A DNA stretch of 64,000 bases from Longimicrobiales bacterium (GTDB lineage: Bacteria; Gemmatimonadota; Gemmatimonadetes; Longimicrobiales; Gaopeijiaceae). The position numbers and the translations under genes were made by a program. The notes under the pieces are model-generated. The model ran no database searches, was not told where the DNA came from, and saw only the letters and a list, made by a program, of their open reading frames with translations. Positions 3,040 through 4,639 of the stretch are shown piece by piece (within the stretch, counting starts at the first letter, position 1; every line of letters starts with the position of its first letter). Where the stretch lies: positions 2,012,501 through 2,076,500 of the forward strand of contig OY282361.1 in assembly GCA_958295645.1 (NCBI GenBank), read 5' to 3'.

Positions 3040-3978
3040 ATGAACAGACCCCGGTTGCCAACCCCCGCCTCTTGGCTCACAACCGCCGCAACCCTCCTGC
3101 TCGCCGCGTCCGTGGCCGCCCCGACCGCCGTCCACGCCCAGCCCGGCCGCGACGCCATGACCGCCGAGCGCCGCGCCGAGATGCAGGCCCGCCAAGCGCG
3201 AGCGCTTCTCGCCGACATGCGCCAGGAGCGGCCCATCGACGCGCTCAACTCGGTGTGGATCGAGGAGCTCACGTGGATGGAGGTGCGCGACGCGCTCCGC
3301 GACGGCACGACGACGGCCGTCGTCGCCACGGGCGGCATCGAGCAGAACGGGCCGTACTTGGCGACGGGCAAGCACAACTACGTCCTGTACGGGGCCTGCG
3401 AAGGCATCGCCAGGACGCTCGGCAACGCGCTTTGCGCACCGGTGATCAAGCTGGTTCCCGAGGGCGACATCGACAATCCCACGGGCCACATGCGCTATCC
3501 CGGCACGATCAGCCTGCGCGAGGAGACGTACCGGGCGGTGCTGGAAGACGTGGCGAGCAGTCTGCGGGCGCACGGCTTTACGGACATCGTCCTCATCGGC
3601 GACAGCGGGGGCAACCAGGGCGGGATGGCAGCGGTGGCCGAGATGCTGAACAAGCGCTGGCGGGGGGCGGCGCGCGCGCATTACGTCCCCGAGTTCTACC
3701 GGTACCGCGAGGTGCACGAGTGGATGGGGACGGAGCTGGGGATCACGGAGCCGATGAACGAGGGCATCCACGACGACTTCGTGATCACGGCCATCATGAT
3801 GGTCGAGAACCCGGAGACGGTCCGCCATGCGCAGCGCGTGAAGGCGGGCAAGGCGTCGATCAACGGCGTCAGCATCGCCGACGAGGCGGCCACGGTCGAG
3901 ACCGGCAAGAAGCTGTTGCAGTTCCGCGTGGACCGCACGGTCGAGGCGATTCGCGCGGCCATGGCCAAGTCCAACTGA
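3040..3978 (+). CDS. Exported creatininase-family protein
   Basis: A 312-residue protein with an N-terminal signal peptide (hydrophobic stretch about residues 13-30, ending VHAQP). Creatininase-fold features follow: TTAVVATGGIEQNGPYLATG near residues 87-106, an IGDSGGNQGGM motif near 187-197, and YVPEFY. Creatininases are metal-dependent amidohydrolases whose first motif normally reads EQHGPHLP followed by an Asp ligand. Here the His is Asn and the later position reads KHNYV, so the metal site is altered and creatinine is not a safe substrate. The ATG at 3040 has a GAGAAAAAGG purine run upstream. It is followed after 28 bases by the selenoprotein peroxiredoxin, probably in one operon. Confidence 0.75.
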   Translation: MNRPRLPTPASWLTTAATLLLAASVAAPTAVHAQPGRDAMTAERRAEMQARQARALLADMRQERPIDALNSVWIEELTWMEVRDALRDGTTTAVVATGGIEQNGPYLATGKHNYVLYGACEGIARTLGNALCAPVIKLVPEGDIDNPTGHMRYPGTISLREETYRAVLEDVASSLRAHGFTDIVLIGDSGGNQGGMAAVAEMLNKRWRGAARAHYVPEFYRYREVHEWMGTELGITEPMNEGIHDDFVITAIMMVENPETVRHAQRVKAGKASINGVSIADEAATVETGKKLLQFRVDRTVEAIRAAMAKSN

Positions 3979-4006
3979 AACGACAATCGCGAGGAGAGAA
4001 CAGGCT

Positions 4007-4639
4007 ATGAAGCGCAGATTTCGGATGGGAACGGCCCCGGCGCTGGGGGCCGCAGTGCTGATCGCGGGACTGGCCGCGGGATTCGCCGCCGCGGCGCCGC
4101 AGCTGGTTGCCGCGCAGGAGCCAGGGGCGGGACTGCTCGAAGCCGGGGCCGAAGCGCCCGACATCGAGTTGACGGCGGCGACGCGCCACGGCGTGCTCAG
4201 GGACAAGATCAAGCTGAGCGACTACCGCGGCGAGACGGTCGTCCTGGCGTTCTTCTTCAGAGTCAGGACGCGTGGCTGAACGGTTCAAATGAGAGCGTAC
4301 CGGGATCAGTACGCAGAACTGTTCAACGAGGGACGAAACGTGGTCGTGCTGGGCATCTCCAACGACTCGCCCGAGGAGTTGGCCTCTTGGCTGAAGGACG
4401 AGGACTTCCCGTTCCTCTTCGGGAGCGACGCCGAGAACGACGGAGCGTCCTACGCGGCGTTCGGCGGATCGTTGCGGGACAACGACATGGTGGACAGCCG
4501 TGCCGTGATCGTGGTCGGGCCGGACGGGCGGATCGCGAAGGTGATCCCCCGCTTCAACCAAGTGGACCCCGCGGCTTACGAAGAGCTGGCGGCCGCGGTG
4601 GACGCCGTGACGCCCGCCGGCGAAGCGTCTTCCCCGTAA
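4007..4639 (+). CDS. Exported peroxiredoxin-like protein, probable selenoprotein (Sec91)
   Basis: The reading frame is open from ATG 4007 to 4639 except for one in-frame TGA at 4277-4279 (codon 91). Before it: a signal peptide (about residues 12-36) and a peroxiredoxin N-terminus, GAEAPDIEL, then LSDYRGETVVLAFFF. After it: TVQMRAYRDQYAELF, VVVLGISNDSPEEL, and a normal AhpC/TSA C-terminus ending VVGPDGRIAKVIPRF. Peroxiredoxins of the BCP/AhpC type read T-x-G-C-T at their peroxidatic cysteine; here the text is TRG-[UGA]-T. The protein has no cysteine anywhere else. A hairpin starting at the UGA (4278-4324) fits a bacterial SECIS element. The best reading is a 210-residue peroxidase with selenocysteine at the active site, acting outside the cytoplasm. 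The alternative is a sequencing or nonsense error. An ABC ATPase follows after 20 bases. Confidence 0.8.
4278..4324 (+). promoter_or_regulatory. SECIS-like hairpin of the peroxiredoxin gene
   Basis: A two-part stem-loop begins inside the UGA. The lower stem pairs GAACGGTTC (4278-4286) with GAACTGTTC (4316-4324), nine pairs including one G-U. The upper stem pairs GCGTAC (4295-4300) with GTACGC (4309-4314), six perfect pairs. The apical loop CGGGATCA (4301-4308) has G at its second position and starts 22 nt after the UGA. Bacterial SECIS elements lie directly after the UGA with a G near the start of a small apical loop, bound by SelB. The same nucleotides also encode conserved protein, so covariation would be needed for proof. 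Confidence 0.65.

Follow-up and report, generated by a model that had tools for sequence, protein, structure and literature searches.

The gene at 4007-4639 of the window, as we call the whole stretch of 64,000 nucleotides analysed here, very probably encodes a selenoprotein, a peroxiredoxin of the BCP/AhpC-TSA type for which insertion of selenocysteine (Sec) is predicted at an in-frame UGA. Standard translation of this region, from a host genome assembled as one contig of 2.89 Mb, gives two ORFs of 90 and 116 amino acids, exactly those into which a previous sequence-only reading of this DNA had expected gene callers to split it. The frame has a sole break, the TGA at 4277-4279 (active-site motif TRG-UGA-T), and the read-through product of 210 residues contains no Cys, which confirmed two other claims of that reading, a single UGA in an otherwise intact frame of 210 codons and the lack of any other Cys in the protein. 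Such an open frame is weak evidence alone, since this GC-rich window contains, over all its frames, 94 pairs of open stretches of at least 80 codons each separated by a single TGA, and the case rests on homology. In this regard, the UGA aligns with the peroxidatic Cys column of solved BCP-type peroxiredoxins, and this alignment together with the codons of the homologues placed it at the catalytic Cys of BCP/AhpC-type enzymes, as had been proposed. A merged set of 127 distinct sequences comprises 90 with Sec (TGA) and 37 with Cys at this one column. The features discussed below are the following:

3040-3978, plus strand: gene for a creatininase-family protein with a signal-like start, 28 bp before the peroxiredoxin gene
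3992-3996, plus strand: probable ribosome binding site AGGAG, from sequence and from purine-rich stretches similarly placed in many homologues
4007-4639, plus strand: predicted selenoprotein gene (210 codons) for a BCP/AhpC-TSA-type peroxiredoxin, predicted to be exported, with UGA as Sec; Pfam AhpC-TSA, conservation and predicted fold
4007-4114, plus strand: signal-peptide-like N terminus, residues 1-36, from sequence, with a likely cut before Gln37 (A-A-Q)
4256-4258, plus strand: Phe84, at the Pro position of PxxxTxxC in alignments
4268-4270, plus strand: Thr88 of the TxxU motif, nearly invariant
4277-4279, plus strand: UGA codon, predicted Sec91 at the peroxidatic position, from the frame, alignment to solved structures and homologue codons
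4277-4325, plus strand: lower stem, 4277-4286 with 4316-4325, 10 pairs here; in relatives only the first four UGA-proximal pairs are well kept
4295-4314, plus strand: putative apical bSECIS-type hairpin, stem GCGUAC 4295-4300 / GUACGC 4309-4314, loop CGGGAUCA 4301-4308
4499-4501, plus strand: Arg165, the conserved peroxiredoxin active-site Arg, invariant and aligned with the Arg of 2cx3

The creatininase-family gene stays below cut-off with both the creatininase and the MftE model of NCBIfam; it adjoins the peroxiredoxin in 13 other loci, and therefore both genes possibly form one operon.

Fold, active site and predicted export

The read-through product matches Pfam AhpC-TSA (3.3e-21), and its AlphaFold2 model, with block-mean pLDDT values of 84-98 over residues 41-200, shows a predicted fold matching those of BCP, Bcp4 and AhpE. 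The closest folds, AhpE and BCP peroxiredoxins (PDB 1xvw and 5id2; 9a4d), share the conserved Thr and Arg but have Cys where the window protein has Sec. A positively charged start, a hydrophobic stretch and a conserved A-x-A-Q, with Q37 shared by 90% or more of the aligned homologues, mark the N terminus, and the protein is probably exported to the periplasm. A second Cys is absent from 88 of the 90 Sec cores and from all 37 Cys cores, and the predicted mature protein is a "1-Sec" peroxiredoxin with Sec91 as its only reactive centre. AhpE is a 1-Cys peroxiredoxin, and 1-Cys peroxiredoxins need an outside partner; by this analogy, the lack of a second Cys would imply the requirement of an external reductant.

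Every one of the 37 Cys forms has a Pro seven residues ahead of the nucleophile, compared with 17 of the 90 Sec forms; in the other 73 Sec forms the residue is Phe (62), Tyr (9), Ser (1) or Val (1). The published motif of Sec peroxiredoxins, PxxxTxxU in the review that covers PrxU (PMC13188914), differs in this way from the window protein, which has Phe at the Pro position. This Pro/Phe pattern follows the tree in blocks, so that the replaced residues represent few independent cases, and an independent-pairs test for a coupling of Pro loss to Sec, with only 4 supported pairs, gave no significance. That selenium relaxes a design rule of peroxiredoxins, with Sec letting the pocket drop a Pro needed by the Cys form, is a tentative and somewhat doubtful proposal; if true, the Pro-less Sec pocket would perhaps take bulkier envelope peroxides.

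In the proposed mechanism, the exported product would fold as a BCP/AhpE-like peroxiredoxin, where the selenolate of Sec91, together with Thr88 and Arg165, would reduce peroxide and become a selenenic acid, and an outside reductant would then restore Sec91 as in 1-Cys peroxiredoxins. Peroxide scavenging is proposed as the main role, which we consider likely. A genuine selenoprotein could instead work in the envelope as a peroxide sensor or as a thiol oxidase relaying oxidation to partners, without being mainly a scavenger, and the missing resolving Cys, the signal-like N terminus, the altered active-site Pro of most Sec forms and the dependence of 1-Cys peroxiredoxins on an outside partner would all suit such a protein; we hold this role to be unlikely, with no partner identified in the analysis and the TxxU plus Arg signature of a peroxidase intact.

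A conserved hairpin after the UGA

The 50 nt starting at the UGA have a folding energy of -18.5 kcal/mol, whereas shuffled versions average -8.8 (z -4.05; 0 of 200 shuffles). Among the 127 sequences, the 6-bp apical hairpin is kept in 89 of the 90 Sec genes versus 1 of the 37 Cys genes; its stem, GCGUAC/GUACGC, is invariant in 39 aligned sequences, and the consensus fold of the relatives contains the apical stem-loop only. For the lower stem, 76% of the cells are paired across relatives, and its lack of conservation past the first pairs led us to leave it out of the claimed element. From the hairpin that the sequence-only reading had described as starting at the UGA, with stems of nine and six pairs, what stood was the stable fold and the conserved six-pair apical stem, whereas the lower stem turned out to have 10 pairs and to be unconserved. 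Likewise, the loop G that had been put at +22 is present, but as G4302 it lies 23 nt past the UGA. The 8-nt loop reads CGUGAUCA in 77 of the 90 Sec genes and CGGGAUCA, the form of the window copy, in 8; the latter has GG in place of the GU of most relatives (GG in 8 of 90), and each of the 89 Sec genes that possess the full hairpin has G as the second loop nucleotide.

No pair of the apical stem changed on both sides in the covariation analysis, which is uninformative for a stem that never varies. A hairpin too invariant for compensatory changes has to be argued from frozen synonymous codons, not from covariation: excess synonymous conservation is strongest at codons 91-105, directly beneath the hairpin, peaks at codons 96-105 (+0.35 codon-identity probability) and stays at 0.15 or less outside codons 81-110. 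According to the proposed mechanism, the stem-loop at 4295-4314 would direct the decoding of UGA 4277-4279 as selenocysteine by SelB and tRNA-Sec. The same frozen codons bear on the reading of the UGA as a true stop between independent proteins of 90 and 116 amino acids, for which an ATG 10 nt past the UGA does open the 116-aa ORF; two separate proteins are nevertheless very improbable, because the UGA interrupts a single fold at its catalytic site, each Cys relative is one continuous protein and the synonymous codons past this point are frozen in the form of a hairpin.

Selenocysteine, cysteine and decoding machinery in the phylum

Scanning genome contigs, we recovered 67 loci, nearly all of them with Gemmatimonadota in the title and a few with Gammaproteobacteria or "BD2-11 clade". 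Of these loci, 65 cover the codon, 64 with TGA and a single one (L082) with TGC; the codon table has two extra rows, the genome's own distant paralogue (L012) and the window gene itself (L017). A misread TGC or TGT, raised in the sequence-only reading, is excluded as a sequencing error by the recurrence of TGA at the same codon in these 64 homologues, with Cys in the other. Moreover, all homologues read at the site have either Cys or Sec, and none was found with neither. The peroxiredoxins of L052, L053, L055 and L057, on contigs titled Gammaproteobacteria or BD2-11, fall among Gemmatimonadota in the tree, and these are probably mislabelled bins.

Of 298 genomes of the phylum searched with a profile, 287 gave matches. 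Other peroxiredoxins are among the weaker matches, and one TGA is present in most of the strong ones. Two distant matches with an in-frame TAG (G016, G021) were considered for UAG-encoded Sec, and an in-frame TGA was noted in G184, but the nucleophile codon is TGC in all three, placing the TAG or the TGA elsewhere in the gene. Plasmid records yielded only distant peroxiredoxins, with <60% identity.

The grouping of all Sec forms into a single clade was rejected (p 0.002), and the exchange between Sec and Cys must thus have occurred more than once. A reversal from Sec to Cys inside the main Sec clade, where a quick tree nests three Cys genes, is unproven, as the AU test allows these genes outside it (p 0.49). 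The TGC locus L082 matches the gene (L121) of genome G095, which shows neither tRNA-Sec nor selA; G034, a member of the same genus, has tRNA-Sec, selA and two UGA copies (L124, L125). Two UGA-bearing peroxiredoxin copies also occur in G110, and in genus g55 (L158, L159/L191, L167, L172, L179) Sec and Cys copies are found in tandem in genomes with tRNA-Sec.

Regarding the decoding machinery, the host genome has a tRNA-Sec (79.5 bits) with a UCA anticodon (ARAGORN) and encodes selA, selB and selD, so that all the components the sequence-only reading had said to look for are present, including selB and tRNA-Sec, the absence of which it had named as counter-evidence. The host selD (L089, G000:C1:2528068-2528988, minus strand) is itself interrupted by a UGA (GAG-U-ACK), followed by a stable predicted hairpin. 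In the phylum, tRNA-Sec was found in 215 of the 298 genomes; weak matches of 49-50 bits were counted as ambiguous. Within the family of the window genome, a strong match to the protein (E about 1e-70 or better) occurs in 51 of 57 tRNA-Sec-positive versus 3 of 16 negative genomes. The selA gene was looked for in 42 selected genomes, mostly ones where tRNA-Sec had not turned up: it is present in all 14 with the UGA form and in none of the 25 Cys-only genomes lacking a clear tRNA-Sec. Several genomes with the UGA form gave no clear tRNA-Sec hit. Overall, 25 of 27 Cys-only genomes have no selA, and the two that do (G006, G080) also have tRNA-Sec. Despite the abundance of single TGAs between open frames in this window (the 94 cases above), the notion of a nonsense mutation or assembly mistake in an ordinary peroxiredoxin, be it pseudogene or sequencing error, can be practically discarded, given that 90 distinct homologues, drawn from many assemblies, carry TGA at this very codon, that the frame downstream is conserved in them and that Cys replaces Sec in genomes without selA.

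Relation to known selenoproteins and biological meaning

Selenocysteine peroxiredoxins as such are already known. PrxU of Eubacterium acidaminophilum (Sohling 2001, cited in PMC13188914; model NCBIfam NF040737) likewise has an in-frame UGA, the AhpC-TSA fold and Sec at the peroxidatic position of TxxU, but the window protein scores 38.4 bits with this equivalog model, far below its cut-off of 270, and differs by its signal-peptide-like N terminus and the lack of a resolving Cys. Other TxxU Sec peroxiredoxins (Prx, COG1225), a broad family with the same motif and a bacterial SECIS after the UGA, are known from environmental and genome surveys (PMC1088965, PMC5029168, PMC1794560). The Prx-like UxxC thiol:disulfide oxidoreductase selenoproteins (PMC13188914) share the Pfam family and the Sec, whereas the window protein is a TxxU form without a second Cys. 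The host genome carries a second UGA-interrupted AhpC-TSA protein that resembles this UxxC group (L016, motif RGHW-U-PYC, encoded on the minus strand at about G000:C1 1958269-1958670, with the TGA at locus positions 1786-1788); no hairpin of notable stability was found after its UGA.

Gemmatimonadota are not mentioned in PMC5029168 or PMC5330540, and full-text literature searches, which most subscription papers fall outside, found no report of the gene in this phylum; the same literature gave no description of a phylum-wide Sec peroxiredoxin with a Cys alternative linked to the machinery. What appears new is the phylum-wide occurrence, the predicted export and the replacement of the Pro in Sec forms.

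Most of the sampled families of Gemmatimonadota have the UGA-bearing gene, which standard gene callers will split or truncate. It is a likely reason why much of the phylum keeps the selenocysteine machinery, a reason hidden by this mis-calling. Sec and Cys forms exist naturally, at times next to each other in the same genome, and along with the Pro/Phe difference they offer a system to ask what benefit selenium brings, and why a lineage retains or loses it in a peroxiredoxin.
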